Part shown: piece after piece, positions 2,394 through 40,708 of the stretch
Position numbering within the stretch: position 1 is the stretch's first letter
Layout of the letters: each line of letters opens with the position of its first letter
Origin: a virus
IMG/VR virus record: IMGVR_UViG_3300035670_000493
Location: 1 to 41,738 of that record
Length of the DNA: 41,738 nt
Strand: one strand, 5' to 3'
Position numbers and translations under genes: made by a program
Notes under the pieces: model-generated
Seen by the model: only the letters and a program-made list of their open reading frames with translations
What the model was told of the DNA's origin: nothing
The model's database searches: none

Positions 2394-5300
2394 GTGGCCT
2401 CTCTAGTAGACTTTTACAAACAAAAACTGGCTCCAAAGATCAGCAACTTCGTTAATACTCTCGATCGCGATAAGAGCATGGAGGGTTTTCAGATCGCCCC
2501 TGGTGGAATTAGGGGTGGTGTAGAGAGGGTGAGTCAAGCGTTTCGTACAAACCCACAACAGTTTAATGTGTTGTCCCCTACGGCTCAAAGAATAGGGATC
2601 AGGGGATTTGAACAAGACGTCAAACCGCAACTAAAAAGCCCACTAGCTAGAACTTTAACCAACGTAGGTACTAACATACTCAAAGTAGGTGAATCGGCCG
2701 GTACAGACGTTTCTACGGGCTTACAGCGCACATTTAAAGGAGATGTGGCGGCAGGACTAGCACAGACAGCTAGGGGTGGTGGAAAGTATGCTACTTTAGC
2801 TCCCCCATTCTTACCCACAACCCTTACGACTACTACCGCCGCCTCATTAGATCAGCCTGTTGGCAAGAACGATGTATTGAGACGAGCCGGAACGGGATTT
2901 TTTGAGGGATACACCGGAGTTAAGCCAACTGATGTTGGGATACAGAGTAAAAACATAAACGTTTTTGGAGCCGAGTTTGACCCACTACAATCAGCCGCCG
3001 GTATGGTTGGGTTTGTTAAAAACCCACTTAATAAACAACTATTCAAAGCAACCGAAGCGATCCTACCAGGAGCGAGTAAAAAACTTACAACCTGGTTAGG
3101 AGTAACAGCTAGTAGGGGTGGATTAGAAAATATCTTACTTAACCTCCCAGAGAAGCCAGAGAACATGACCGACATGGAAAAGGTGTCATGGATGGTACAA
3201 AACGGTGTAGCTGGGGGAGTACAAGAAATAGTTGGTAGAGGCGTTCTGGGTGGACTTAGTAAAGCGGCCGATGTGACTGGTATAAATAAAGCTGTATCTA
3301 AGGGTGCAGAGTTAAGTAAAAAAGAACTGACCAAAATGTTTGATGCTATGGCAGAGTTTAAGCGCAAAGCTACTATTCCTGTGAGTAAACCTGGATTTGG
3401 AGCTAAACTAGGTCAGACAATAACAGAACCAATGTGGAAATGGGAGATGGGGATGGTAGACGACGGATCAATGCAGAGGTTTGAATCAACCATAGACACC
3501 CCCAAACTAGCAGTAGAGCCAACCCTTTCACCAGAGACTAATCAGTTTATGCAGGCAGTTAGAAATAAGTTTCCTGGATTAGATGAGAACTTAACCAATA
3601 CTTATGCCAGGAAAATAGCAGATCTACAAGGTAGTAAAGACATTAAAGTTCAACACATTGCAGAGGCGGTACAATACACTAATCCTAGTTATACCCCACC
3701 TAACTTTGTTAATACCTCAAGACTATTCGACAAAACTGGTAGAAACTCTAACTTTACAGGCAATGAAATGTATGACCGCCAGATAGAAGTTGGGGCAACC
3801 ACCGGACTAGACCCAGAGTTGCCAAAGTTATTCAAAAAAATATCCTCAAAGTTAGAAAATATACCACCAGAAACGAAACAATTTCTAGACGCCCTTATCA
3901 ATAAAAAGTTTAATACCAACGAACTAACAGTACCTCAATTAAAAGAACTTGACTCGATAATAACTAGGGCGGGAAAGAATTTAACCCCACAAAGTATATC
4001 TAAAGCACTATCTCCCCAACCAGACCTCCTCACAGAAGCCCGTCCAACAGAATATCAGAAATATAAAGAAGTTATAAAAAAGTACCAAAGAAGCGAAGAT
4101 GGGCTTGTATCAAAGATGTTTTCAGATCAGAGAGTAAGAGAGAAGCAGAAGGGGTTCAAAAAAGTTGACTATACCAAAGAAGAGTTTGGTAACTTCTTAA
4201 AAAATAATAGTAAGTACAAAAGTATTTACGATAATTGGGTTAAGAGTGGGTACGATCCTCAGTTAAAACCTAGTGTGGACAGAATAGATCCGAAAAAGGG
4301 ATATTCGCTAGACAATATCCAGGTTGGTACATGGGCAGAAAATGATATTAAGGGTAGGGGGGAAATGAGGATTACTCAAGGAAAACCAATCGTTCAGCTA
4401 GATAAAGATGGAAATGTAATTAAAATACACAGATCGTTAAGCGACGCGGCAGATGAAACTGGTCTTAATTTTAGAAGCATCTCTAATGCTGCACTCGGAT
4501 CAAGGGGAGTAAAGTCAACGGGCGGGTACTCTTGGAGATATGCAACTCCCGATGAAATCTCACCCTCCCTCTACAACCAAGCTAAGGGAGAACCAAAGAT
4601 AGTTACCCCCATCCGTAGACCATTAAAAGAGGTGTATGCGGAGAAACTTACAGGAGTAACCAGAGAAGAACCCCAAATAAAACCCCAGGAAGCGCAAACA
4701 CAAGGTACGTTATTAGAAGCTCCGAAGCCAGTTGTTTCATCTGACTCTATTTTATCACTTCCACAAGGAGAGATTAAGACTTATTCCCCAGCTCAAGCAA
4801 AATCCAGATTCAAACAATCTGGTAAAACAATACCATTTGTGACAAAACTAAAACCAGGAGAAACTCCCATTACTATTCCAAGTGGGGGAGTAACTGGTAA
4901 ACAACTATATCAAGAGGGGACTCCAATTACCGAGAAACAAGCAATAGATCAATGGGACAAAGCGGTTGCCGACTATGCAAACGGAATCACTAGAACAAAA
5001 AGGTCTGTATCAGTAGAGCCAACAATAAAAACTATTTCTAGTATTTCAGACAAGAGCGCAAAATTAAAAGTACAAAACCAAAAGAAACTCGATGATGAAT
5101 GGCAGAAAGCAGTCTTTGGAGAAGCTCAAACTAGAACCGCTAGACAAGCAGAAAAAGACCTTGAGAAAGCTATCAAGACAAGCACTAACGAGGCTACGTT
5201 CAAACTCGATACGGCAGACTCGTGGAAAGATAAAAACGCCCTATCACTAGGGACTGAAACAATGGATAGAAACTTCGAGGATATTATGGGTAAGCAAGCC

Positions 5301-7772
5301 CCAGAGTTAAAAAGAAAATTACTTGAACCAGTTTACAAGTCAGAAGCACAACGCACTAAATTCTTAAATACTGAACGTGAGCAGATCAAAAAACTTGGAA
5401 TTAAAGCTGGCAGTAAAGAGTCATCCCTTGTACAAGAGTATGGAGAGGGTAACATAACCAGAGAGCAACTGGCTCAAAAGACAAATAATCCAGATAAGAT
5501 AATTAAAGCAAGTGAGTTTATTCGTGGTAAGTATGATGAGTATTTAGGACAGTTAAACAAAGTTCTAACCAGAAATGGATATGAGCCAATCCCAAAGAGA
5601 TCAGACTACTTCCACCACTTCCAAGAGCTTACTGGAGCATTTGATTTACTGGGAGTATCGCTTAAAGCACAGGATTTACCAACAGATATAAACGGACTAA
5701 CGGCAGACTTCAAGCCAGGTAAAACATTCTTCTCAGCTGCACTACAGCGACTTGGTGGAGAATACAAAAGTGATGCAATAGGCGGTATTGATAAATATCT
5801 TGAGGGAGCTAGTAATCAAATCTATCATACAGATAATATCCAAGCCCTAAGATCATTTGAAACAGCACTGAGAGAAAAGTTTGCAGGGACTAATCACTTG
5901 AGTAATTTTGTGGCTAACCTTTCTGAGTACACAAACGGGATCGCTGGTAAGAAATCAATGATTGATCGAGCGGCTGAAAGTATTGTGGGTCGTGGTATTT
6001 ACGGGGCTGCTACTGGTCTCAAGAGACAAGTAGGGGCAAACATGGTAGGAGCGAACGTATCCTCAGCCCTTACTAACTTTATTCCCCTAACTCAAACTCT
6101 TGCTACTACCGACAAAGGCTCTGTACTTAACGCAATCATGGCAACGATTAAGAACGTGGGCAAAGATGATGGATTTATCCAAGCGTCTGATTTTCTTACT
6201 ACTAGACATGGAACAGACAGACTAGCCAAATCATTATATGAGAATGTGGCCGATAAAGCTGGGTGGTTATTTAAGAACGTAGATAGCTTTGTATCTCAGG
6301 TAGTTACTAGGTCGAAGTATCTTGAGGGGATTAAGAAGGGAATGAGCGAATCTGATGCTATGGATTATGCAAACTCATGGGCTAAGAAACTTATGGCGGG
6401 TCGTGGAAAGGGTGAAATGCCAACCCTATTTAACTCTCAAACTCTTGGAGCTATAACACAATTCCAGCTTGAAGTTAAAAATCAACTATCTTTTATGGCT
6501 AAGGATATTCCTAGAAACTTCGACAAGGTAGGGGCAGCATCGGCGATAGCTCAACTATTCTTATATGGATACCTGTTTAACAACCTTTACGAAAAGATGA
6601 CAGGTCGCAGGCCAGCATTTGATCCTATCGGCGTAGGACAAAGAACTTATGAGGACTACACCAACCCAGATATGAAAAAGGGTCAGGCAACCAAAAATCT
6701 AGTCAAAAACGTGTCCGATCAACTACCATTTGTTTCCACCTTCACCGGTGGAAGACTACCAATCACATCTGCCATACCAAACCCAATGAAAGTCGTGTCG
6801 GGGGAGTCAACAATCGGTAAGGAACTAACCAAACCATTACAGTTTATTTTACCCACAGGTGGTGGACAGATCAAAAAGACTTATGAGGGTATTAAGGCAT
6901 ACAACCAGGGCGCATCTACAACCCCGAGTGGGAATGTTAGGTTTACGATCCCCCAAACTCCAGCCAATAGAATAAGAACTGCTTTATTTGGGCAGTGGTC
7001 TACCCCAGAGGCACAAAAATATTTACGAGAGGGTCAAACTCCATTAGGAGAAAAACAATCAGAGTTATTTATGCAGAGTAAAGATAAACAGGTTCTGTTT
7101 GACAAGATCAGGAGTAACCAGTTATCTGAAAGACAACTTACTGCCGTAAAAGATACTCTAAAAAAGAATAATGTGGGATCAGCTACAGTAACCGGAGGTA
7201 AATATGTCTACATGGATGACTCCACGGGGGACATAAAAACAATTGATACCTCAAAAGTCTCCTCCATGCCCACCTCTACCCGCTACGATCAGGTTAAAAA
7301 AGAGCAAGAGAAGTGGAAACTGGCAGATGATATTCTCAAGTTAAGCCCACAGGATCAATCTACAGCCTTCAAAGAACTGGGGATTGCCAAAGAGGATGCT
7401 AGTTACTATTCGGTCGCTACAAACGATACTGTAGCCAAATACGCCTATGTCCAGGACCAAGTACAGGGTGCGAGAAACTACCAAGAGTTCTTGCAAAAAG
7501 CCATTCCTTTAATGAGAGAAGTCAATGGGAAAGCTATTTTATCTTCAAGCGTGATTGACGAGCTTTATAACAACGACGTAATCACCTCGGCTCAAAAGAA
7601 ACAGCTCAAGAGTATTGATTTTTCGGGGGCTAAACCTAAGCTAAAATCATCTGGGACTACAAAGGCTAAGTATGTTAAGGCAGTTATGCCCAAGAGTGTT
7701 AAAACCAGTTTACCTAAAGTTAAACGAATCAGAACCAAACGATATAAGTTAGTAATCCCGAAGGTTAAATAA
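2394..7772 (+). CDS. giant internal virion (ejection-type) protein with embedded homing endonuclease
   Basis: A protein of 1,792 residues starting at GTG 2394 after AAGGAGG. Most of it is hydrophilic and helical, with a few mildly hydrophobic stretches (for example 145-155 and around 1365-1395). The C-terminus is strongly basic (RTKRYKLVIPKVK). Length, position after the tail genes and composition resemble the very large internal proteins that short-tailed phages eject into the cell; this is inference. Residues about 555-717 are clearly foreign: a complete HNH plus NUMOD1-type homing endonuclease lies in frame (separate entry). Without it the protein would be about 1,630 residues. No transglycosylase, protease or polymerase motif is obvious. 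Confidence 0.8.
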   Translation: MASLVDFYKQKLAPKISNFVNTLDRDKSMEGFQIAPGGIRGGVERVSQAFRTNPQQFNVLSPTAQRIGIRGFEQDVKPQLKSPLARTLTNVGTNILKVGESAGTDVSTGLQRTFKGDVAAGLAQTARGGGKYATLAPPFLPTTLTTTTAASLDQPVGKNDVLRRAGTGFFEGYTGVKPTDVGIQSKNINVFGAEFDPLQSAAGMVGFVKNPLNKQLFKATEAILPGASKKLTTWLGVTASRGGLENILLNLPEKPENMTDMEKVSWMVQNGVAGGVQEIVGRGVLGGLSKAADVTGINKAVSKGAELSKKELTKMFDAMAEFKRKATIPVSKPGFGAKLGQTITEPMWKWEMGMVDDGSMQRFESTIDTPKLAVEPTLSPETNQFMQAVRNKFPGLDENLTNTYARKIADLQGSKDIKVQHIAEAVQYTNPSYTPPNFVNTSRLFDKTGRNSNFTGNEMYDRQIEVGATTGLDPELPKLFKKISSKLENIPPETKQFLDALINKKFNTNELTVPQLKELDSIITRAGKNLTPQSISKALSPQPDLLTEARPTEYQKYKEVIKKYQRSEDGLVSKMFSDQRVREKQKGFKKVDYTKEEFGNFLKNNSKYKSIYDNWVKSGYDPQLKPSVDRIDPKKGYSLDNIQVGTWAENDIKGRGEMRITQGKPIVQLDKDGNVIKIHRSLSDAADETGLNFRSISNAALGSRGVKSTGGYSWRYATPDEISPSLYNQAKGEPKIVTPIRRPLKEVYAEKLTGVTREEPQIKPQEAQTQGTLLEAPKPVVSSDSILSLPQGEIKTYSPAQAKSRFKQSGKTIPFVTKLKPGETPITIPSGGVTGKQLYQEGTPITEKQAIDQWDKAVADYANGITRTKRSVSVEPTIKTISSISDKSAKLKVQNQKKLDDEWQKAVFGEAQTRTARQAEKDLEKAIKTSTNEATFKLDTADSWKDKNALSLGTETMDRNFEDIMGKQAPELKRKLLEPVYKSEAQRTKFLNTEREQIKKLGIKAGSKESSLVQEYGEGNITREQLAQKTNNPDKIIKASEFIRGKYDEYLGQLNKVLTRNGYEPIPKRSDYFHHFQELTGAFDLLGVSLKAQDLPTDINGLTADFKPGKTFFSAALQRLGGEYKSDAIGGIDKYLEGASNQIYHTDNIQALRSFETALREKFAGTNHLSNFVANLSEYTNGIAGKKSMIDRAAESIVGRGIYGAATGLKRQVGANMVGANVSSALTNFIPLTQTLATTDKGSVLNAIMATIKNVGKDDGFIQASDFLTTRHGTDRLAKSLYENVADKAGWLFKNVDSFVSQVVTRSKYLEGIKKGMSESDAMDYANSWAKKLMAGRGKGEMPTLFNSQTLGAITQFQLEVKNQLSFMAKDIPRNFDKVGAASAIAQLFLYGYLFNNLYEKMTGRRPAFDPIGVGQRTYEDYTNPDMKKGQATKNLVKNVSDQLPFVSTFTGGRLPITSAIPNPMKVVSGESTIGKELTKPLQFILPTGGGQIKKTYEGIKAYNQGASTTPSGNVRFTIPQTPANRIRTALFGQWSTPEAQKYLREGQTPLGEKQSELFMQSKDKQVLFDKIRSNQLSERQLTAVKDTLKKNNVGSATVTGGKYVYMDDSTGDIKTIDTSKVSSMPTSTRYDQVKKEQEKWKLADDILKLSPQDQSTAFKELGIAKEDASYYSVATNDTVAKYAYVQDQVQGARNYQEFLQKAIPLMREVNGKAILSSSVIDELYNNDVITSAQKKQLKSIDFSGAKPKLKSSGTTKAKYVKAVMPKSVKTSLPKVKRIRTKRYKLVIPKVK
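4056..4547 (+). mobile_element. in-frame HNH/NUMOD1 homing endonuclease domain
   Basis: This segment encodes residues about 555-717 of the internal virion protein. It has the hallmarks of a free-standing phage HNH endonuclease: an N-terminal SEDGLVSKMFSDQR stretch, then KSGYDPQLKPSVDRIDPKKG and YSLDNIQVGTW (HNH core, P626 to about W645). A NUMOD1-like DNA-binding module follows (KPIVQLDKDGNV to GGYSWRY, 663-715). No intein splice residues are evident at the edges (no leading Cys/Ser block, no terminal His-Asn), so it appears to stay in the mature protein. The edges are approximate. Confidence 0.8.
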
Positions 7773-9426: not shown

Positions 9427-9939
9427 ATGACAGACACGGCCCTAGTTAGAGACTCATTTGGTGTAGCCGACAAGGTACACATCTCAACTCCCGAACACGA
9501 GAAGTTTATTACGTCTGAAAATGGATTAGACATTGAACCGATTGAAATCAGAGAGGAGTCTGGTGGAGATGCCTTACTTGACGCGCTTGACATAGACGAC
9601 GACCTAATGAACATGCCAGAAGAAGATCGGGAAAATCACAAAGAAGTTAAACAATACATACTCGACATAATTAAAAAATCTGGTGACAGTCCTACGATGG
9701 GAGCGTTCAAACGAACGCTTAACGATATAAAGGCTGACATGGGATTACCAGAGGGAGCAGATCCCTCTATGATTCTTGACCGAATCAGTGGGGTTGTAAG
9801 ATCCTGGAAATCACTTTCATTCATTCATAGCCCATCGGAAAAAAAGAGCATTCTATCTAAACTTATGCGAGCCACAGACTCCAAAGATATGAATAGAATC
9901 GTACTTGAGCAGATGGAGTCTAAAATGATATGGAGGTAA
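9427..9939 (+). CDS. hypothetical acidic virion-region protein
   Basis: 170 residues, acidic in the first 80 (DALDIDDDLMNMPEEDRE) and helical afterwards. It has no recognisable domain or membrane segment. It starts at ATG 9427, 7 bp after the Gly-rich fibre gene and without a strong ribosome binding site, and ends 1 bp before the next gene. The context (between fibre genes) suggests a structural or chaperone role for fibres; this is only positional. Confidence 0.6.
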   Translation: MTDTALVRDSFGVADKVHISTPEHEKFITSENGLDIEPIEIREESGGDALLDALDIDDDLMNMPEEDRENHKEVKQYILDIIKKSGDSPTMGAFKRTLNDIKADMGLPEGADPSMILDRISGVVRSWKSLSFIHSPSEKKSILSKLMRATDSKDMNRIVLEQMESKMIWR

Positions 9940-9940
9940 C

Positions 9941-10468
9941 ATGGTCGACCTAACAACTAAACCACATAGTTTGACCCACATCGGGAACATCTCTTTTGAC
10001 GAAGATAATCAGTTAATCGTTAATGAGATCGTCGGAGTTGATGAAAACGGAGTAGTTAGGAAAGTACCCGTAGGGACGGATGGTAGCTTAATTACTAGCT
10101 CTACCTCTCTCCCCCTCCCCACAGGAGCCGCTACAAGTGCCAAACAAGACACTGGTAACACCTCTCTGGCTAGTATTGACACCAAAATTGACGCTCTAAC
10201 TACTCCTAGCGACACTCAACCCATCTCCGCAGCATCTCTTCCGCTTCCATCTGGGGCTTCAACTGCTGCTAACCAGGCAACAGCTAACGCTTTTCTGGGC
10301 GGGATTGCTGGTTTAACTCCTGCCGCCTACGACTATATCTCCCTTTCATATACAGGATCAAACTTAACAGGGGTAGTATTTAAGAGTGGGGGAAGCGGTG
10401 GAACAACCATTGCCACCCTAACACTCGCATATTCTGGATCAACGCTGACTAGCGTGACTAAAACATAA
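9941..10468 (+). CDS. fibre or baseplate-type protein with duplicated motif
   Basis: 175 residues. The sequence SLPLPTGAATSAKQDTGNTS at about 52-71 and its relative SLPLPSGASTAANQATANAF at about 99-118 form an internal duplication of a motif common in phage baseplate or fibre proteins. The C-terminus is beta-rich (YISLSYTGSNLTGVVFKSG). The start follows GGAGGTAAC. Its stop overlaps the ATG of the next gene, so the two are probably translationally coupled. Confidence 0.65.
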   Translation: MVDLTTKPHSLTHIGNISFDEDNQLIVNEIVGVDENGVVRKVPVGTDGSLITSSTSLPLPTGAATSAKQDTGNTSLASIDTKIDALTTPSDTQPISAASLPLPSGASTAANQATANAFLGGIAGLTPAAYDYISLSYTGSNLTGVVFKSGGSGGTTIATLTLAYSGSTLTSVTKT

Positions 10469-11055
10469 TGGCAGACCAATTTAAGTTCAACCCATTCACG
10501 GCTAAGTTCGACATTGTGCCGACAGTTTCGACTATGACCGTGGGGACAGAGGCCACCATCCTTGCTTTAACTCCTACTTCTGGAGATCTGGCTTACGGCA
10601 CCGATACCCAATTCTTTTACGTCGCAGACGGTACTAACTGGAGGAGAGCATCACTAAAGTTTTATACAGATAGTGCCAATCCCGATATGGGGTACTTACA
10701 AAACAATAGTAAAGACGGATATTACGCCACATTTATAACAGATAAGTACCTATACAACGTCATCCTACAGGGATATAACGGTACTCCAGTCAACGGAGCT
10801 ATTAGAATAAACACCGAGGAAAGCCCCGATACTTTTGAAATCTACATGAGAGATACGGGGTGGTTTACGATTATCTACGACCTATCTATGACGTTGGGGT
10901 ATTTTGTTCACTATCCATTTTCAGCAACACAAGCTATTAAAGTGTGGAGTGGGATGACGGCTAATGAGCCAAATGGAAGACCTTTGATTAACGAGTATGT
11001 AACAAGTATGGGGGCATTACCAGCTCCTAAAATTATTTATGGAGGAACATTTTAA
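10468..11055 (+). CDS. tail fibre-associated protein
   Basis: 195 residues. The N-terminus (FKFNPFTAKFDIV) and the segment GDLAYGTDTQFFYVADGTNW match the short modules often found at the base of phage fibre proteins. The rest is beta-rich without a catalytic motif. Its start overlaps the previous stop by one base, and its stop overlaps the next start in the same way. Inferred to be a fibre or fibre-linker component. Confidence 0.6.
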   Translation: MADQFKFNPFTAKFDIVPTVSTMTVGTEATILALTPTSGDLAYGTDTQFFYVADGTNWRRASLKFYTDSANPDMGYLQNNSKDGYYATFITDKYLYNVILQGYNGTPVNGAIRINTEESPDTFEIYMRDTGWFTIIYDLSMTLGYFVHYPFSATQAIKVWSGMTANEPNGRPLINEYVTSMGALPAPKIIYGGTF

Positions 11056-12002
11056 TGGCAACCGTTTACGTCTCACCATCTGGAAGTAATAGTTATACCT
11101 ACGCTCAGGCACAAAGTAGCAGTACTCCTTGGCTTACGTTAGCCAAGTGCAATACTGATGCAACAACTGGTGACACAATTATTATGATGACAGGCACTCA
11201 TACTAACTCTGGAAACAACGTTGGATATACACTAACGAAATCTTTTACCATTCAGGGTGAAGTAGCTCCAACTTCGGTCAACGGTGTGATGACATGGACG
11301 ACAATAATAGACGCCGCTAACGGACAGTGGGGAATAGGACCAGCCACCTCTGGAGATATATCACTTACCTTGAGAAACATAGAGTTTAGAAATTATAAAT
11401 GTTCTTCACCTGGGTCTGATTACAACTTCGGAATAGGTGCAGGGGCGGGTACAAGCCAGGCAACAACAATAGACTGTCAATACTGCAAATTTAAGACTTG
11501 GGGGATAGGCTCTACTTACTACTCTGGGGGTGTGTTTGCTGGTGCTTTGACTAATGATAATGCGATGACATGGACTATAAAATACAACATCTTTGAGGAT
11601 ATTTATGACTCTAATAACGGTGGGGCGAGTTATATTATCGGTATTAGAAACGGCTCAAGCATAGCAAACATAACTATGATGTATAACACTTTTTATTTAA
11701 CAAGAACCGTTGCAACCGAGATACTGGACAACCTTATTAGCTCTTATGCTGCTGGAACGAACACCTTGACGTGTAAGAATAACATCTTCTATTCTGCTGC
11801 AGCTCTGCCTTTCTGGAAAACAAGTGGTGGTGCTACGGCTTTTAATACAATCACTTCTACAAGCAACGACTTTTACAACATTTCAAGCCCTCCGTCTGGA
11901 ACGGGAAACATTACCAGCGACCCACTATTTATTGACGCAGCCAATGGGAACTTCCACCTCAGACCAAGCTCACCAGCGTTAGATACGGGGACAACAACAT
12001 GA
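11055..12002 (+). CDS. parallel beta-helix fibre protein (pectate-lyase-like fold)
   Basis: 315 residues. The start VYVSPSGSNSYTYAQAQ and the TLAKCNTDATTGDTI segment are typical of right-handed parallel beta-helix proteins of the pectate lyase superfamily. Later turns (ITLRNIEFRNY-like, IDCQYCKF, LTCKNNIFYS, SDPLFIDAANGNFHLRPSSP) follow the same repeat pattern. Such proteins act as tailspikes that bind or cut surface polysaccharide. No catalytic residues can be assigned by eye, so it may only bind. Confidence 0.7.
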   Translation: MATVYVSPSGSNSYTYAQAQSSSTPWLTLAKCNTDATTGDTIIMMTGTHTNSGNNVGYTLTKSFTIQGEVAPTSVNGVMTWTTIIDAANGQWGIGPATSGDISLTLRNIEFRNYKCSSPGSDYNFGIGAGAGTSQATTIDCQYCKFKTWGIGSTYYSGGVFAGALTNDNAMTWTIKYNIFEDIYDSNNGGASYIIGIRNGSSIANITMMYNTFYLTRTVATEILDNLISSYAAGTNTLTCKNNIFYSAAALPFWKTSGGATAFNTITSTSNDFYNISSPPSGTGNITSDPLFIDAANGNFHLRPSSPALDTGTTT

Positions 12003-32288: not shown

Positions 32289-33266
32289 ATGGCCGTTGAT
32301 TCAGCAAAATCCACTTCATCGACAGTTAGTCAGGCGATTAAAAACCGCTATTATGACAAATTGTTCTTGGAGATTGCCGAGAGCAAGCTCGTCCACAAGC
32401 AATTGGGACAGCGCAACCGCAAGGTTGAGCAGGGCGAAGGTGGATACGGTACTGGCGTAGTTTATTGGACCAAGTGGACTAACCTCCCCGAGGTCACAGC
32501 CGGACAAGGCGAGGGTGTTCCCACCACCGCAGTGTCTATGACTGCTACGAACGTAACCGGTTCTACCGCTCAATACGACGCAGCCGTCTCTATTTCCGAC
32601 ATTCTTGCTTACACCTCTTTTGGTGATGTCATGAAAGCCGCTATGGAGCGTCTCGCGTACAACGCTGGTAAATCGATTGATGGTATTGTGAAGAAAGAGA
32701 TCCAAGCTTCCGGTACGTTTGCTACCATTCCTGGTAGTATCGCTGCCGCTGCGTGGACTTCTATTCCCGCAACCGCCACCCTTACGATTGCTGGTGTCCG
32801 TATGGCAAAACGAACCTTGTCTCGAAACGACGCTATGCAGCTTCCTGATGGAAACTGGGTTGCCGTTATTCATCCCGATGCTTTGTATGACCTTCAAGCC
32901 GACACCACCACTGGTGGTTGGATTGATGCCAACAAATACACGGATGCTAACGCTAGCAAGCTAATGACTGGTGAAGTCGGTAAACTTATGGGTGTTCGAT
33001 TCCTCGAAACCTCTAACGCTGCCGTTCCTCGCACAGGCGTTGCCGCTACCGGTTCTATCTACGTTACGTCCTTCTTTGGTCGTGAAGCGTTCGGTGTCAC
33101 TGAACTCCAAAGTCTCAAGACTTATGTCAAGGGCTTTGCTTCAGGTGGTACGGGCGATCCTACCGAAAAAGTCGCTACCGCGGGTTGGAAGACTACATTT
33201 GGCGCAGCTTCGTTGAACAGTGCGTTCTATGTGAACCTAAATCATCCAGTCTCAACTACTGCTTGA
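32289..33266 (+). CDS. major capsid protein (N4-gp56 family)
   Basis: 325 residues. VEQGEGGYGTGVVYWTKWTN, SISDILAYTSFGDVMKAAME, VIHPDALYDLQADTTTGGWI and GKLMGVRFLETSNA follow the N4-gp56 family of HK97-fold capsid proteins. Start ATG 32289 after TTAAGGAGAAAATAAT. Codon use is richer in C and G at third positions than in its neighbours, as in highly expressed genes. A strong terminator follows. Confidence 0.9.
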   Translation: MAVDSAKSTSSTVSQAIKNRYYDKLFLEIAESKLVHKQLGQRNRKVEQGEGGYGTGVVYWTKWTNLPEVTAGQGEGVPTTAVSMTATNVTGSTAQYDAAVSISDILAYTSFGDVMKAAMERLAYNAGKSIDGIVKKEIQASGTFATIPGSIAAAAWTSIPATATLTIAGVRMAKRTLSRNDAMQLPDGNWVAVIHPDALYDLQADTTTGGWIDANKYTDANASKLMTGEVGKLMGVRFLETSNAAVPRTGVAATGSIYVTSFFGREAFGVTELQSLKTYVKGFASGGTGDPTEKVATAGWKTTFGAASLNSAFYVNLNHPVSTTA

Positions 33267-33329: not shown

Positions 33330-33340
33330 ACATAAACTTG

Positions 33341-33346
33341 TATACT
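33341..33346 (+). promoter_or_regulatory. -10 box TATACT six bases before ATG
   Basis: TATACT, ACAGTC, ATG 33353. It begins twelve bases after the capsid terminator T-run, giving the HNH gene its own probable leaderless transcript. Confidence 0.6.
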
Positions 33347-33352
33347 ACAGTC

Positions 33353-34012
33353 ATGAGTAAGGTAGAAATAGTTTGTGAGTATTGTGAAAAGAAGTTTTAT
33401 AGGTATAAATCCCAGTTGGTCGGTAAAAGAAACGTTTGTTCTCGAGAGTGTGCCAACCTAATCAGGTTAACGCATGTGTATGAGTGCGAGGTTTGCCACA
33501 AAGTTTTTCATAAACCACAAAAGAAGGGTGTTGTAGCTAGGTTTTGTTCTCAAAAGTGTAGGGGTATTGGATTAACCGCCAAGAAAAATACTAATTGTTT
33601 AGTTTGCGGCAAACCAATTTACATTGCTGAATGGCAAAAAAAGATTGGTGGGGGGAAATACTGTAGTCGTCCTTGTAAGTCGAAGGGACAGACATGTTCT
33701 TTTCTGGGCGTTAGTCCAGCTCACTACTATTCAACAAGTGTATGGAAAAGGTTAAGGCTAGAAATACTTGAAAGAGATAAATACATTTGTCTTAATTGTG
33801 GTGTCTCCCCACAAGACAAATCTATGTTACAGGTTAATCATATAACTTTTAGAGAGCTTGGAGGATCTGACAATCCAGAAAATCTTGAAACTCTTTGCCG
33901 GTCTTGTCATGCTAAAAAAGATGCCCTTAGATTAAAAGAGTTGACTGGAAACGAAAAAGCTAGAATGAGGGATTATAAGCAACATATAGATGAAATAAGA
34001 AGCCTTCTGTAG
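33353..34012 (+). CDS. HNH endonuclease with tandem zinc fingers
   Basis: 219 residues. Three Cys-pair units lie in series (CEYCEKKF with CSREC, CEVCHKVF with CSQKC, CLVCGKPI with CSRPC). An HNH domain follows (RLEILERDKYICLNCG, LQVNHITFRELGGSDNPENL, ETLCRSCHAKKDA). This is a free-standing homing endonuclease type. TTG 33338 upstream is unlikely as start because it lies across the -10 box. Inserted between the capsid terminator and the GroES-like gene. Confidence 0.85.
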   Translation: MSKVEIVCEYCEKKFYRYKSQLVGKRNVCSRECANLIRLTHVYECEVCHKVFHKPQKKGVVARFCSQKCRGIGLTAKKNTNCLVCGKPIYIAEWQKKIGGGKYCSRPCKSKGQTCSFLGVSPAHYYSTSVWKRLRLEILERDKYICLNCGVSPQDKSMLQVNHITFRELGGSDNPENLETLCRSCHAKKDALRLKELTGNEKARMRDYKQHIDEIRSLL

Positions 34013-34025
34013 TTGCGTGATCTGT

Positions 34026-34031
34026 TATAAT
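34026..34031 (+). promoter_or_regulatory. extended -10 (TG-T-TATAAT) six bases before ATG
   Basis: TATAAT, GTAGTT, ATG 34038. Probable leaderless promoter of the co-chaperonin and glycan operon. Confidence 0.65.
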
Positions 34032-34037
34032 GTAGTT

Positions 34038-34610
34038 ATGGTTGATTTAGCCTACAAGCCCGAATGGGCTAAATACGAAAAAGACCTAACTAATCCCGAT
34101 CCCGAGATAGCAAGTAGAGCCGCCGAAGCGTTTGACGAAACTCGCCGTGAGGAAATGAAGAATGATCCTAAAGCTCGTGAGTGGGAGCAGTCCCGTAAGG
34201 AAGCGTTTCTCAAAGATAAGCCCGAATGGACAAAGCAAAGACTCGCCAAAGAAAAAGCCGAATACGATAAGACGTTAGATAAATACTTAAATGGAGGAAT
34301 TATCATGGGTAAGTTTATTCCAGCCCCAGGTTTCTTGTTAGTTAGACCAATTGAGATTGAGCAGACTAAGGCGGGGATTTATTTGCCCCCAGGAGCCGAT
34401 ACAGCCGACGTAGGGGAGCCAAACCGAGGCATTGTGGTAGCGGTAGGAAAAGACAAATACTTTACCAATGGCGCGATTGTAGAGTCTCCCGCTAAAGTTG
34501 GAGAGACAGTAATGTTTAAGTGGCATACCATGAAGATGATGTACGAGGGGAAAATCCACCACTTCATGTCATTCGAAGATGTTTTTGCCGTTATCAAGGA
34601 GGAAGAATGA
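34038..34610 (+). CDS. GroES-like co-chaperonin with N-terminal extension
   Basis: 190 residues. Residues 1-88 are a highly charged helical extension (YKPEWAKYEKDLTNPDPEIA, RREEMKNDPKAREWEQSRKE). From M90 a complete co-chaperonin follows: GKFIPAPGFLLVRPIEIEQT, KAGIYLPPG, NRGIVVAVGKD, PAKVGETVMFKWHTMKMMYE. GroES caps GroEL; phages use their own for capsid folding. GGAGGAATTATC-ATG at 34305 is a good internal start that would give a 101-residue protein, the normal GroES size, so two products are possible. Confidence 0.8.
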   Translation: MVDLAYKPEWAKYEKDLTNPDPEIASRAAEAFDETRREEMKNDPKAREWEQSRKEAFLKDKPEWTKQRLAKEKAEYDKTLDKYLNGGIIMGKFIPAPGFLLVRPIEIEQTKAGIYLPPGADTADVGEPNRGIVVAVGKDKYFTNGAIVESPAKVGETVMFKWHTMKMMYEGKIHHFMSFEDVFAVIKEEE

Positions 34611-36010
34611 CTTTAATATCGGTAATCACCTCAACGTATAAAAGACCTCAACTACTAAAGCGAGCCATTGAGTCTGTACGAAGTCAAACATTCACTGATT
34701 GGGAGATGATTATTGTGAACGACGACCCAGACCACGAGACAAAAAGAGTCGTCGAGGACTTTAACGACAATCGATTAACCTATATCGCGATGGGGGGGAA
34801 GTTTGGTTGTGACACTAGACCAAAAAACATTGGGATTAAATCCTCAACGGGTAAGTATATCGCTTTTCTTGATGACGACTGCGCGTACCGACCGGATCAC
34901 CTGCAAGCCCTAATCAAAGCACTAGAGCCAGGAGTTGATGCGGTTTATGGGGACCGGTGGATATTTGAGGAGGACAAAAGCGTTTCGATCGGGATTTTCC
35001 ATGAGTTTGATCCATTCTTAATGATGAGAAGAAATTATATTGATACATCCGACGTTTTAATCAGGAAAGAGGCTATCGTTGAGGTGGGAGGATTTGACGA
35101 GAGATATAAAAAATACGTTGACTGGAATCTTTGGGTACGGATGATGAAAGCTGGATATAAATTTAAGCGTGTTCCCCTGGTTTTAACCGACTACCATGTT
35201 TATCCTCACTCAAAAAGTAACCGCAAAGAGGACGAAAGGGGGTTTAGTATCCCCGCATGGGAGCCGTTTGACGTTGATATTCATGTCCCACACCTCTCAC
35301 CAGAGAAAGAGCCTACAGTCGGGATCTTCTCGATCACCTATGACCGGCTTGACTACACCAAAAAGTCATTCAAGAGTCTTTGGGAGACAGCCGAGCATCC
35401 TTTTCACCACCTAGTAATTGATAACGGCTCAACCGACGGAACTCTGGAGTGGTTAGACAAATATATGTTAGAGCATCCTGGCAAAGTTAATTTAAAAACC
35501 TACACTAAAAACCACGGAATCTCAATCACAAGTAACTACGCGATTAAACAGTTAAAAGAGTACGACATAATTGTTAAAGTGGATAACGATGCCATCTTCT
35601 TGACTAAGGGATGGTTGAAACGAATGGTGGAATTGTGGAAAAGTAACCGGATGCTAGTGATGAGTCCTTATGTTCAGGGGCTAAAGGATAACCCAGGGGG
35701 CGCACCACGAGGAGATTATGGAATAGTTAAGGGAGAGTATCTTGGACTCACCTACCATATCGGAGGAATGGTACATTTTGCCGACTCTCATGCTTATGAC
35801 GGGTTTAAGTGGGATGAGACAACTTTTTATCATGGAGAACAAGATAAAGAGTTATCTATATATCTAAACTCCAGGGGTTATCAGCATTGTTATCTTGAGA
35901 ATTTTTATGCGAGTCATGGCGATGGCGGCACAGAAGCCCAATTTAAACATTATCCAGAGTATTTCGAAAGAAGGAAATGGGAAAAGTCTCATAGATATGG
36001 CGAGAAATAG
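34607..36010 (+). CDS. two-domain GT-A (family 2-like) glycosyltransferase
   Basis: 467 residues from ATG 34607, overlapping the GroES-like stop and preceded by AAGGAGGAAGA. Domain 1 (about 1-215): ISVITSTYKRPQLLKRAIES, MIIVNDDPDHETKR, KYIAFLDDDCAYRPDHL (DxD). Domain 2 (about 240-460): TVGIFSITYDRLDYTKKSF, HHLVIDNGSTDGTLEWLDKY, IIVKVDNDAIFLTKGW (second DxD). Two catalytic domains in one chain often add alternating sugars. Substrates cannot be read from sequence. First gene of the glycan cassette. Confidence 0.85.
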   Translation: MTLISVITSTYKRPQLLKRAIESVRSQTFTDWEMIIVNDDPDHETKRVVEDFNDNRLTYIAMGGKFGCDTRPKNIGIKSSTGKYIAFLDDDCAYRPDHLQALIKALEPGVDAVYGDRWIFEEDKSVSIGIFHEFDPFLMMRRNYIDTSDVLIRKEAIVEVGGFDERYKKYVDWNLWVRMMKAGYKFKRVPLVLTDYHVYPHSKSNRKEDERGFSIPAWEPFDVDIHVPHLSPEKEPTVGIFSITYDRLDYTKKSFKSLWETAEHPFHHLVIDNGSTDGTLEWLDKYMLEHPGKVNLKTYTKNHGISITSNYAIKQLKEYDIIVKVDNDAIFLTKGWLKRMVELWKSNRMLVMSPYVQGLKDNPGGAPRGDYGIVKGEYLGLTYHIGGMVHFADSHAYDGFKWDETTFYHGEQDKELSIYLNSRGYQHCYLENFYASHGDGGTEAQFKHYPEYFERRKWEKSHRYGEK

Positions 36011-36536
36011 TAAGGTAAATACCGCTTGTTTTCAGTGTGGAAAAACATTTAAAAGAAATGTCTGTCATTTAGGAGCTAGAAACTTTTGTAGTAGAAAGTG
36101 TTCCGCAACTGGACACAAAAAAAGGCCGATTCTTTGGAAGGGACAAGAAAAGCCTAAATGTATAGACTGCGGTAAACCAATCTGGTATAAAAGTAAAAGG
36201 TGTGGTCATTGTTGTAAGTCTGGTAAAAATAGCTGGAAATGGGCTGGTGGAATTACTCCAGTTAATACAAAAATAAGGATGTCAGATCAGTCCCTAGAGT
36301 GGAGAAAGAAAGTTTTTTATAGAGACAACTATACTTGCCAACATTGTTGTTCTTCTGAAAGGACAATCCAGGCACATCACATAAAAGAATTTGCGACTTA
36401 TCCAGAATTAAGATTTTCGGTAGAGAACGGATTAACTTTATGTAAGTTGTGTCACAGGAAACATCATAAGATAAAAAATCTTTATCAAAACTTTGACCCT
36501 AATCAATTTTTTGTTAGGTTAGTGAGGCAGATATGA
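35997..36536 (+). CDS. HNH endonuclease inside the glycan cassette
   Basis: 179 residues from ATG 35997, which overlaps the glycosyltransferase end by 14 bp. Zinc units CFQCGKTF and FCSRKCSATG, CIDCGKPI and CGHCC, then an HNH domain (WRKKVFYRDNYTCQHC, IQAHHIKEFATYPELRFSVE, NGLTLCKLCHRKHHKI). Free-standing homing type, similar in layout to the gene at 33353. Its stop overlaps the next ATG, so it is translated with the cassette. Confidence 0.85.
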   Translation: MARNSKVNTACFQCGKTFKRNVCHLGARNFCSRKCSATGHKKRPILWKGQEKPKCIDCGKPIWYKSKRCGHCCKSGKNSWKWAGGITPVNTKIRMSDQSLEWRKKVFYRDNYTCQHCCSSERTIQAHHIKEFATYPELRFSVENGLTLCKLCHRKHHKIKNLYQNFDPNQFFVRLVRQI

Positions 36537-37210
36537 GCGTATCAGCCTGCATCCTACTTCACTATACTGATCGTGATGAGCCTAACGCTCCCCAAATAGC
36601 CGAGGCGTTAAGGGGGCAGGTGGATGAACTTGTCTTTTTTGTGGATAACCCAGCGATCAAGTTTGACGATCCCAACTGTACGTTTATCCGCTCGTCTCGG
36701 GGGTTTCCTGTGATCGCTAGAAACGCGATAGGCAGTTTACTTGATACGGATTATGTTTTCTTTCAAGACTCTGATTTAACAGTAGAGCCCGGAACTATTG
36801 AGTATATGCTGGAGTGGGCGGAGAAGTACCCTAACGCTGTTTTGGGATTTGAGGGTTCTCGGATGGCAGAGAGTAAAAACCCCTACACAGAAGGTCATAC
36901 AATCAATCGTAGCGACAAATTAGAGCCAGTTGATATGCTGATTCGCACGTGGCTGGTTCCGAGGCGGGTAGTGGGGATGGCAACCAATCTTTACCTGAAC
37001 AATCGAGGTTCTATCCCTGACAAGTATGTGGATGATATTCTATTTTGTTTAGGAAATCGCTACGGGTTTAAAGAGATGAACTACGCCTTACCCATTAAAC
37101 CTGGATGTGGAGTTGTTGAGCTTAACGCGGCGGGTGACGGGCAATCAACAACTCCGATTCATTACGCCATAAGGGATCAGGTATGTCGCTACCTAATGAA
37201 CGCTAGATGA
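36533..37210 (+). CDS. GT-A-like glycosyltransferase
   Basis: 225 residues. VSACILLHYTDRDEPNAPQI, VDELVFFVDNPAI, then DYVFFQDSDLTVEPGTIEYM contains the DxD metal and nucleotide-sugar site (DSD). Later NYALPIKPGCGVVELNA. A short, single-domain GT-A fold. It overlaps genes on both sides by 4 bp. The sugar and acceptor are unknown. Confidence 0.7.
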   Translation: MSVSACILLHYTDRDEPNAPQIAEALRGQVDELVFFVDNPAIKFDDPNCTFIRSSRGFPVIARNAIGSLLDTDYVFFQDSDLTVEPGTIEYMLEWAEKYPNAVLGFEGSRMAESKNPYTEGHTINRSDKLEPVDMLIRTWLVPRRVVGMATNLYLNNRGSIPDKYVDDILFCLGNRYGFKEMNYALPIKPGCGVVELNAAGDGQSTTPIHYAIRDQVCRYLMNAR

Positions 37211-38337
37211 TTAAACTAATCAAAAACACCTTCTATCACGAGACTTGGACTAAGTTGAGGTTGATGTGGTTTATTTTATGGGCAAAACAGCTCTCATTCG
37301 GGGAGAAGTGCCAGCAGTTTGAACGTGAGTTTGCTAAATGGCAGGGTAGAGAGGATGCAATCTTTGTAAACTCTGGTTCTAGTGCCAACTTAGCTTTAAT
37401 TCAGGCTCTACTTAACCTTGGATACCTCAAAAAAGGCGATAAAGTGGGTTTTTCAGCTCTGGGTTGGTCAACTACCGTGATGCCATTGATACAATTAGGG
37501 CTAAAGCCCGTTCCGATGGATGTGGCAACCAAGTCGCTGAACATATACAGGCAACCAACCAAAGATTTAAAAGCCCTATTCGTCACAAATCTTCTGGGAA
37601 TGTCCCCGACTAACCCAAATTTTCTCGTAGATGAGTGTAGAAAGCGCGGGATTATTCTACTAGAGGACAACTGCGAGAGTTTGGGGTCGGTAGTGAGTGG
37701 TAAAAAACTTGGTAACTTCGGTTTAGCATCAACTTTTTCATTCTATGTCGGACATCACATGAGTACAATTGAGGGTGGGATGGTGTGTACCAATGATAAC
37801 CGCCTTGCCCGTGAGTTAAGGATCGTTCGCGCGCACGGATGGGATCGCAACTTAGACGTTCGTACTCAAAAGGCTATCAGAAAACAGTACGGAGTGGCTA
37901 CTTCGTTCTATTCTCGCTATACATTCTATTCTCTAGGGTACAACTTTAGACCGACCGAAATTGCGGGCTTCCTAGGGCTACTACAGCTCCCCTACCTCAA
38001 GGAAATAATTGATAAAAGAGAGAGAATATACCAAAAAATACGCTCACAGGTAACTAAATACTACATTCCTAACCCCGTTTGGATGGATAAGCACTCTGCT
38101 TTTTCGCTTCCAGTGATTTGTGGGTCTTCACAAGAGCGAGATCAACTTGTAAAACGCTGTGAGAGTAGAATAGAGGTACGCCCAATCGTCGGAGGCGACT
38201 TAACTATGCAACCATTCTACGGCGGCAGAGGAATGAAAAACGCCAGGAAAATCCATGAGACGGGATTGTATATTGGAATTAACCCAGACATGAGCAAAAA
38301 GGATATTAAGATGATAGTGGAGGTGTTAAATGCCTAA
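37207..38337 (+). CDS. DegT-family PLP enzyme, sugar 3-dehydrase-like (catalytic Lys replaced by His)
   Basis: 376 residues of the DegT/DnrJ/EryC1/StrS fold. IFVNSGSSANLALIQALL binds PLP phosphate, KALFVTNLLGMSP and IILLEDNCESLGS hold the PLP-ring Asp, and STFSFYVGHHMSTIEGGMVC carries the active-site loop. There the Schiff-base Lys of aminotransferases is replaced by His (H183-H184). The known members with this change are C3-deoxygenating enzymes such as ColD and RfbH/E1, which make 3-deoxy or dideoxy sugars. The four-Cys Fe-S pattern of E1 is not evident, so it is nearer ColD. Overlaps both neighbours. Confidence 0.8.
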   Translation: MIKLIKNTFYHETWTKLRLMWFILWAKQLSFGEKCQQFEREFAKWQGREDAIFVNSGSSANLALIQALLNLGYLKKGDKVGFSALGWSTTVMPLIQLGLKPVPMDVATKSLNIYRQPTKDLKALFVTNLLGMSPTNPNFLVDECRKRGIILLEDNCESLGSVVSGKKLGNFGLASTFSFYVGHHMSTIEGGMVCTNDNRLARELRIVRAHGWDRNLDVRTQKAIRKQYGVATSFYSRYTFYSLGYNFRPTEIAGFLGLLQLPYLKEIIDKRERIYQKIRSQVTKYYIPNPVWMDKHSAFSLPVICGSSQERDQLVKRCESRIEVRPIVGGDLTMQPFYGGRGMKNARKIHETGLYIGINPDMSKKDIKMIVEVLNA

Positions 38338-38944
38338 AATCTCATTCGAGCTTCACGACGGGAGCGTCCTACGGAATAACTATGAAGCCTTATTCAAACT
38401 CAAAGAACACATCCCCGAGTTAAAAGTCTCGCTATTCTTCATCCCCTACGACTATGTTGTTGAGAGGTCACAACTTAGTTTGCAAAGAAAAGCCAAGTTA
38501 AAACTTCTGAAAGACAACCTGGACTGGATTAGGTTATACCCTCACGGGGTAATGCACATCCCTAACGAGTTTGAAAAGTGTGACCGCGAGACAATGGAGC
38601 TGTGTCTAAAAGCAATTGACGAGGCGATGAGTAAGGATGAGTTACCCTACGAAAAAGGTTTTTGCGCCCCGTTCTGGCTGTGGAACAAGGATGTTACAAG
38701 TGTGCTAGACGAGCATGGGTGGTTTGGTGCAATAGATCGTAACCAACCAGAGATGGTTAAGACAAAAAGAACCTACACTTATACCCACTCAATAGATGAG
38801 GACTTTAGAAACTTTAAGGGGTCAGAACTTATTCTGCATGGTCACATGACCCCGCCTTCATTCAACAACCTTGATGATTGTATGCTCAACTTACTAAAAA
38901 TACCCAAAGGAGAGTTCGTCTTCATTGACGAGATGGTCAAATGA
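38330..38944 (+). CDS. polysaccharide deacetylase-like protein
   Basis: 204 residues. ISFELHDGSVLRNNYEALFK (candidate metal Asp), WIRLYPHGVMHIPNEFEKCD (His pair), GFCAPFWLWNKDVTSVLDEH and SELILHGHMTPPSFNN follow the order of NodB-type deacetylase motifs on a short TIM-like barrel. It would remove acetyl groups from an amino sugar or act on another glycan amide. Overlaps the PLP-enzyme gene by 8 bp and the next gene by 4 bp. Confidence 0.7.
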   Translation: MPKISFELHDGSVLRNNYEALFKLKEHIPELKVSLFFIPYDYVVERSQLSLQRKAKLKLLKDNLDWIRLYPHGVMHIPNEFEKCDRETMELCLKAIDEAMSKDELPYEKGFCAPFWLWNKDVTSVLDEHGWFGAIDRNQPEMVKTKRTYTYTHSIDEDFRNFKGSELILHGHMTPPSFNNLDDCMLNLLKIPKGEFVFIDEMVK

Positions 38945-39927
38945 AAAAACTTGTGATGTATACCAATGGAAGCGCGTCGGCCCAATGGAGGCTAGAGGAC
39001 CCCGCTAAGTACATGGACTTTGAGGTCAGGTTCCCTAAGAATGGGATACAAGAAGAAGATATTCAATGGGCGGACTGTGTGACATTACAAGGATGTGTTG
39101 ATAAAGAAGCGATCGCGATAATCGCCTATTATAAGGACCAGGGAAAGAAACTAGTATTAGAACAAGATGACCGAATAGTGGTTGAGGACGATAACCCCCA
39201 CAAACAACAACATGAGATTACCCAGGCCAGTAAAGTTATCGAGATTACAGCGAAGATGGCAGATATGATTACCTGTACCACGCCATATCTGGCAGATAAC
39301 CTAAAACAATACAACGATAATGTAGTAGTGTTGCCTAATTATATGGACATGAAACGCTGGGACTTGCCAGAGAAGAATAAAAATAATGGAGATCAAATTA
39401 GAATCGGCTGGGGAGGGTCCATTACTCATATTGAAGACATTAAAATGATTATCCCCGCGCTACACAAGCTCTACGCAGAGTTTCCTCAAATCGTTTTTGT
39501 GTTTGTGGGCGACCCCAGGATAGCAGACTATATGGAAGGACTGCCAAGCGAGGTAATGATGGGAGTTCCCTTTGACGGCTGGCCCACCAAGCTACACTCA
39601 CTGCGACTTGATGTAGGGATCGCTCCCCTACGAGATTCGGAGTTTAACAAGAATAAGAGCGCGATCAAATTTTATGAATACTCTATCGCTAAATATCCTT
39701 TTGTCGGCTCCCCCACGGTCTATGAGCATGAAGTCTGGCACAATGTAACAGGACTCATCGCCCATAACCTAGACGATTGGTATACACACATTAAAACCCT
39801 CATTACTCAACCCAGAAAAGCGCAGTCGATGGTGGATAACGCGTACAGTTACGTCAAAGAAAATAAAAACCTCGAGAAAAGAATCTACAAATTTAACAAT
39901 GCTTACCAAAGTCTTTGGTTAGCTTGA
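38941..39927 (+). CDS. GT-B (family 4-like) glycosyltransferase
   Basis: 328 residues. The N-terminal Rossmann-like half ends with ITCTTPYLADNLKQYNDNVV and VLPNYMDMKRW. The C-terminal half has IRIGWGGSITHIEDIKMIIP, FVFVGDP, LRLDVGIAPLRDSEFNKNKS and AIKFYEYSIAKYPFVGSPT, the usual GT4 donor-binding set (ExxE-like region). Last gene of the cassette; unit C follows at once. Confidence 0.8.
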   Translation: MKKLVMYTNGSASAQWRLEDPAKYMDFEVRFPKNGIQEEDIQWADCVTLQGCVDKEAIAIIAYYKDQGKKLVLEQDDRIVVEDDNPHKQQHEITQASKVIEITAKMADMITCTTPYLADNLKQYNDNVVVLPNYMDMKRWDLPEKNKNNGDQIRIGWGGSITHIEDIKMIIPALHKLYAEFPQIVFVFVGDPRIADYMEGLPSEVMMGVPFDGWPTKLHSLRLDVGIAPLRDSEFNKNKSAIKFYEYSIAKYPFVGSPTVYEHEVWHNVTGLIAHNLDDWYTHIKTLITQPRKAQSMVDNAYSYVKENKNLEKRIYKFNNAYQSLWLA

Positions 39928-40021: not shown

Positions 40022-40708
40022 ATGTCCACACTTAATAAGGGCTTGGTATCAGATATATGTCAGATTATTTCTGACTACCGAGGAGAAAGCACGGTTGATA
40101 CTTCCGCCAAGCGGATTAGAGCTATTAGTAGACAAGAACAGTCACTCGCAAAGCGCAAACTGTGGAGGTTTTATCTTTTACGAGATCAATCGCAAGCGGG
40201 AAGCGGGGTAAATGACTACACTGTCGGGTCTGCTACCTACCCAATGAGATTTAAAGGACTTGCCGAGGTCTTTGTTGGTGGGACTACCGAAGATAAACGC
40301 TATCAGATAGTCGATTTTTTCAAGTATAAAAACCTCTACAATCGCAATAACGCCGAGAAAATAGTCTACGAATGGTACGATGCGGCTAACGATCTTTGGA
40401 AAATGCACATCAATCCTATTCCCACGGCCTCGGATACGATTTACTATTCATACTTCTGGCTACCACCCACAAGAACCGCAAGTAGCGACGCGGTTACTTA
40501 CATTGATGATGAGGCACTAGCCAGACTAGCTTTGTCAGAAATCTACGAAGGGGAGGATGAGGATGATAAGGCAATCGCCCAAAAGTCTCTCGCCGAGCAG
40601 ATAGTAGAAGAGATGTTGTCAACGGAAAATGCGCCAGCACAAAACCAAACATATAACATGGGAGCCATTGAGAACTCGATAACAAATCGAGGGATAGGGT
40701 CTTACTAA
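40022..40708 (+). CDS. head-tail connector / adaptor protein
   Basis: 228 residues. The N-terminal helix region (LVSDICQIISDYRGESTVDT, RRxxxRxxxA-like spacing), a central beta segment (FKGLAEVFVGGTTEDKRYQI, VYEWYDAANDLWKMHINPIP) and IYYSYFWLPPTRTASSDAVT then YIDDEALARLALSEIYEGED fit podovirus head-tail adaptors that dock under the portal. ATG 40022 follows AGGAGGGTAA. It is followed by one base-adjacent tail gene. Confidence 0.7.
   Translation: MSTLNKGLVSDICQIISDYRGESTVDTSAKRIRAISRQEQSLAKRKLWRFYLLRDQSQAGSGVNDYTVGSATYPMRFKGLAEVFVGGTTEDKRYQIVDFFKYKNLYNRNNAEKIVYEWYDAANDLWKMHINPIPTASDTIYYSYFWLPPTRTASSDAVTYIDDEALARLALSEIYEGEDEDDKAIAQKSLAEQIVEEMLSTENAPAQNQTYNMGAIENSITNRGIGSY

Follow-up and report, generated by a model that had tools for sequence, protein, structure and literature searches.

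A capsid-adjacent glycan cassette with a constant core and an exchangeable slot in a podovirus-like phage lineage

Virion glycosylation has been demonstrated in few phages. Three articles (PMC12363180, PMC11256854 and PMC12619734, citing Freeman et al. 2023) describe phages with glycosylated capsids, and glycosylation of the capsid and the tail tube is reported as demonstrated for Che8, Corndog and Myrna (PMC12363180, citing Freeman 2023). These phages encode tandem glycosyltransferases (GTs); in cluster O, an O-methyltransferase gene adjoins three GT genes (PMC11600133). Phage-encoded GTs are likewise present in the cassette described here. However, the Che8 GTs are encoded near the genome end (gp108–110), whereas the present set is locked beside the major capsid protein (MCP) gene and has an exchangeable slot. 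Furthermore, the accessible text of PMC12363180, PMC11256854, PMC12619734 and PMC11600133 names no CE4 protein or ColD-like enzyme for Che8, Corndog or Myrna. Our hhalign comparison, which covered GT4 against gp108 and the tandem GT2 enzyme (GT2x2) against gp109 and gp110 and left GT2b, Corndog and Myrna outside its scope, gave homology probabilities of 0.1–0.7%. Because no kinship of GT4 or GT2x2 to the Che8 GTs is detectable, we suggest by analogy that the cassette may work like the Che8/Corndog system, rather than being a member of it. The gtrABC seroconversion cassettes of temperate phages comprise a phage-encoded GT2, a GtrA flippase and a membrane-anchored GtrB. The present cassette also encodes GT2 enzymes, and the best PHROG match of GT2x2 is a GtrB-like O-antigen conversion family, but it has neither a GtrA flippase nor a membrane GT and occupies a late structural position. 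Gtr-type O-antigen conversion was rejected because the cassette proteins of the window include no membrane components. In the Manatee Spring podovirus ctQWt234 (MW202801; MCP identity ~30%), a metagenome record annotated gene by gene only, the homologous MCP gene is immediately followed by genes for a GT, a methyltransferase, a nodB-like protein and another GT. It differs from our genome in the radical-SAM and PhyH genes of its slot and in its single-domain GT2.

The stretch of DNA analysed here, hereafter the window, is an entire IMG/VR virus record (IMGVR_UViG_3300035670_000493; 41,738 nt) with a 127-bp terminal repeat at its ends. Because of this repeat, a complete circular map of ~41.6 kb is likely for this podovirus-like genome. 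The late genes are arranged in the order TerL, portal, scaffold, MCP, HNH endonuclease, GroES-fusion, glycan cassette, SU10-type adaptor and a virion structural protein whose gene wraps through the end repeat (Table 1). A preliminary description of the window had placed three GTs, a sugar 3-dehydrase-like enzyme and a deacetylase-like protein at 34607–39927, upstream of the head-tail connector. All five genes are found there by ORF analysis together with Pfam/PHROGs/NCBIfam, PDB and fold matches: family matches identify the GTs as GT2x2, GT2b and GT4, the dehydrase-like assignment agrees with the family match and the active-site histidine, and the next gene encodes the adaptor. The same description spoke of one overlapping unit. 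The cassette genes do overlap, by 4, 4, 4, 8 and 4 nt, but an HNH gene (~35997–36536) absent from that list lies inside the unit. Similarly, the GroES-like gene said to lie upstream has a Cpn10 domain, but it is a fusion gene whose GroES half is absent in some relatives (for example, L034, L036, L037 and L017).

Table 1. Features of the late region of the window.
Feature	Coordinates	Strand	Evidence or remark
Major capsid protein (MCP), candidate glycan acceptor, 19.4% Ser/Thr	32289..33266	+	phrog_1357
HNH endonuclease between MCP and GroES-fusion genes, GC 0.375	33338..34012	+	absent here in most relatives
Capsid-adjacent protein: conserved charged N-terminal part and GroES (Cpn10) domain	34017..34610	+	Cpn10 2.8e-11
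Core gene 1, GT2x2: two-domain family-2 glycosyltransferase	34607..36010	+	PF00535 3.3e-42, two stretches
HNH endonuclease at GT2x2/GT2b junction, GC 0.354	~35997..36536	+	start codon inferred
Slot gene GT2b: single GT2/GT-A glycosyltransferase	36533..37210	+	PF00535 1.2e-8; AF2 GT-A fold
Slot gene: ColD-like nucleotide-sugar 3-dehydratase, DegT family, His at PLP-lysine position (FSFYVGHHMSTIEGG)	37207..38337	+	DegT/DnrJ/EryC1/StrS 2.4e-55
Core gene 2: CE4/NodB-fold protein, probable sugar deacetylase	38330..38944	+	AF2 fold; D10/H72/H76 conserved, catalytic Asp -> His9
Core gene 3: GT-B/GT4-type glycosyltransferase, most widely conserved member	38941..39927	+	phrog_7162 1.8e-33
SU10-type head-tail adaptor, right cassette boundary in the window	40022..40708	+	match 9.2e-7

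The GC content of the cassette (0.43–0.47) is close to that of the genome (0.43), and both HNH genes look like later insertions because theirs differs from both. In the related contig L004, GT2x2 and GT2b abut directly and an HNH gene lies elsewhere. A recent foreign insertion of the cassette itself is unsupported: its GC content agrees with the genome's, unlike that of the HNH genes, and its core is common to the lineage. An Rfam search of the window and of contig L016 returned zero matches, and a promoter/terminator scan gave fewer matches than expected by chance. Elsewhere in the window, the central part of a 1792-aa protein (2394–7772) is endonuclease VII/HNH-like (phrog_1035, 6.7e-11).

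We searched related genomes for the same cassette beside capsid genes, as the preliminary description had advised. IMG/VR relatives were found by the capsid protein alone and counted if at least 4.1 kb follows the MCP gene. In all 18 such contigs, representing 16 distinct capsids (two pairs are identical), MCP is followed first by the GroES-fusion gene, in full or as the N-terminal part, and then in turn by GT2x2, a slot, NodB and GT4. About a dozen further contigs with identical gene order came from searches with NodB and GT4. The search with GT4 alone gave 80 loci, 45 of which have a homologous MCP gene upstream (the match is weak in three, L057, L059 and L063), in some cases within 1 kb and with a single small ORF between. 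Chance co-occurrence is ruled out by the conservation in 18 of 18 contigs and by the independent GT4 search. No MCP was recognised in the available sequence of the other 35 loci, and in all four of these that were inspected (L066, L070, L079 and L094), GT4 lies shortly before TerL. A methyltransferase-like gene stands directly upstream of GT4 in three of these four. No GT4 follows the MCP gene in nine distant MCP relatives (Pagevirus, Beephvirinae, a Paenibacillus phage, and gut and Bacillota contigs), one of which shows only 2.5 kb. A search of bacterial genomes with the MCP sequence, aimed at the host, found only relatives of ~30–33% identity in Bacillota genomes, where the cassette is absent. 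The genes after the cassette vary (the adaptor in the window, a p9427 homologue in most relatives), while the cassette stays beside MCP. Homologues of window gene 9427–9939 directly follow GT4 in most relatives, whereas in the window itself this gene is distant from GT4, implying a post-cassette rearrangement. The cassette genes are shown at the sequence level to be under purifying selection (pS 0.71–0.87 and pN 0.17–0.25 for every gene, window versus L004).

The slot is the position between GT2x2 and NodB. It contains GT2b and the DegT enzyme in the window, L004 and L147; GT2b alone in L049 and L118; and a class I methyltransferase in most relatives. In L012, L014, L016, L031, L106 and L135, the methyltransferase is fused to GT2x2, and in L011 the slot is expanded to methyltransferase, GT2, GmhA-like, HddA-like and RGP genes. 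The last of these (reversibly glycosylated polypeptide, L011:15036–15926; PF03214, 1.6e-31) lies beside the GmhA-like and HddA-like genes. The slot state requires at least eight changes on the capsid tree (shuffled mean 11.3), and the DegT and GT2b combination requires two changes even when only well-supported branches are considered. These comparisons indicate that the framework is passed on together with the capsid and the slot is exchanged, because the core remains constant while the slot changes at least eight times on the capsid tree. We found no description of such a fixed-core, exchangeable-slot architecture in the literature searched, which covered subscription journals only to a small extent. 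This architecture is the new part, virion glycosylation itself being already known. We tentatively propose, as a serious possibility, that the virion-glycan locus of this lineage of uncultured podoviruses resembles a bacterial surface-antigen locus, with a constant core, a swapped slot and serotype-like variation of the coat.

The GT2b model (AF2, pLDDT 77, from a five-sequence alignment) has a GT-A fold, and polypeptide GalNAc-transferases are among its best PDB matches. This likeness is a mild hint of function at most, because GT-A folds resemble each other. None of the cassette proteins of the window has a transmembrane segment (no hydrophobic stretch ≥ KD19 1.6). The tandem GT2 gene of L016 (10550–13015) has an in-frame low-complexity insertion of ~200 residues in its second domain, with no Rfam intron match.

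The best PDB match of the slot DegT enzyme is ColD, GDP-4-keto-6-deoxymannose 3-dehydratase (9e-52). Both marks of the ColD type, the DegT fold family and the replacement of the PLP lysine of DegT aminotransferases by histidine, are found in this protein, and the histidine is shared by L004, L005 and the 28%-identical L147. The enzyme would thus be predicted to yield a 3-deoxy-4-keto sugar. In contrast to the colitose pathway, no Gmd or ColC partner was identified in the window phage, and the ColD-like activity is a predicted one. Since no partner dehydratase supplying the substrate and no reductase gene were identified among the window ORFs scanned, the host would have to provide these enzymes. 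The unusual deoxy sugar raised as a possibility in the preliminary description is therefore favoured by the ColD-like enzyme, but this enzyme sits in the exchangeable slot and its partner genes were not identified in the window ORFs scanned. In L005, a 67%-identical DegT enzyme adjoins an SDR epimerase/dehydratase-family gene, with a PIG-L-family gene and GTs nearby. This neighbourhood supports a function in making nucleotide sugars.

We consider it fairly probable that the cassette is a virion-glycosylation system, in which a conserved backbone assembler is combined with an exchangeable tailoring module. The cassette genes would be expressed late with the capsid gene, as their position suggests. 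Soluble GTs would draw on cytosolic nucleotide sugars of the host to assemble a short glycan, the virion protein that carries it being most likely MCP or the protein encoded next to it. One residue would be de-N-acetylated by the CE4 protein, and the slot enzymes would set the outer sugar; in the window, the 3-dehydratase may convert a 4-keto-6-deoxy nucleotide sugar of the host to a 3-deoxy (3,6-dideoxyhexose-type) sugar. Exchange of the slot would then alter the surface chemistry of the particle, leaving the assembly machinery unchanged. We infer the virion as target, the late expression and the order of the enzymatic steps, as well as the glycan and its acceptor. In favour of this reading, the genes keep to the capsid gene, none of the enzymes is other than soluble, and capsid glycosylation is known from other phages.

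The main rival is modification of the host surface, which was the second option of the preliminary description: a late change in envelope glycans would keep progeny from being trapped on debris, or exclude superinfecting phages. The tandem GT2 and GT4 resemble enzymes of cell-surface polysaccharide synthesis (TuaG, TuaH, PglI and WcaA models), the best PHROG of the tandem GT2 is GtrB-like, and LPS/capsule pathways typically include ColD and heptose genes. The close DegT homologue of L005 also belongs to a large glycan cluster. However, the cassette encodes no membrane protein, flippase, GtrA/GtrC-like partner or transmembrane GT, and its position beside the capsid gene is invariant instead of scattered over accessory sites, so that we regard host-surface modification as rather unlikely. 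Of the two options, virion glycosylation is better supported by the capsid-adjacent position, the soluble enzymes and the precedents, although the GT4 relatives that precede TerL with no recognised capsid gene nearby count against it.

The CE4 protein has no match in Pfam, PHROGs, NCBIfam, PDB sequences or the phage collection. The preliminary label of a deacetylase-like protein is borne out by the fold, although sequence families lend it no support: the AF2 model (pLDDT 92) has a CE4 fold, with Foldseek matches to CE4 proteins from 9.3e-7 (probability 1.00), including acetylxylan esterases, ArnD and peptidoglycan deacetylases. The predicted Asp-His-His metal triad (D10, H72 and H76) is invariant across 10 sequences. 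The catalytic-base Asp of motif 1 is retained in L004, L011, L012, L014 and L016, but is replaced by His (His9) in the window and three others. On the model, the window protein is a probable sugar deacetylase, its activity being uncertain because His stands in place of the catalytic Asp. Further matches of the model are to the turret of Haloferax tailed virus 1 (8qpg, 1.7e-4), where a CE4-like fold serves as a virion part, and to phage minor tail proteins. These matches and the His substitution would suit a virion enzyme, in a turret or the tail, that acts on glycans of the host or the environment, with only the GTs modifying the virion. We find this improbable, as the protein is a bare domain of ~204 aa lacking attachment domains, always lies between glycan genes and is once fused to a methyltransferase (L016/L047). 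A second NodB-like gene is found 3' of the cassette in two contigs (L039:14966–15577 and L040:11332–11943).

Glycosylation of hypermodified bases in phage DNA, for which phage GTs are well known (PMC12619734, citing Pyle 2024), is very improbable here, since no base-hydroxylation gene was recognised among the 10 early ORFs scanned, the cassette sits amid capsid and tail genes, and the CE4, methyltransferase, GmhA/HddA and RGP genes of the relatives better suit glycan building. If virion glycosylation holds for the whole lineage, this would suggest that a sugar coat is important for ordinary environmental phages and is not an occasional accessory. The combination of conserved genes and a swappable slot raises the question of which selective forces favour change in the particle surface. 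The soluble tandem GT2, the cytosolic CE4 protein and the viral ColD are also candidate small enzymes for glycoprotein work.

As for the acceptor, Ser/Thr residues average 19.0% in GT4-linked MCPs and 15.3% in MCPs without GT4, a difference that is confounded by phylogeny and gives a weak hint. The MCP C-terminus has a TV(S/T)(S/T)TA-like sequence in most members of the close clade. The Ser/Thr residues and the C-terminus are only candidate O-glycan sites, because the Ser/Thr content is just as high in many further structural proteins of the window and the comparison is phylogeny-confounded. Next to MCP, the charged N-terminal part of the GroES-fusion protein is kept in all relatives (alignment A5). 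L111 encodes, in addition to the GroES-fusion gene, a complete Cpn60 (GroEL-type) gene within the cassette, at the NodB/GT4 junction (10237–11778; Cpn60_TCP1, 1.2e-53).
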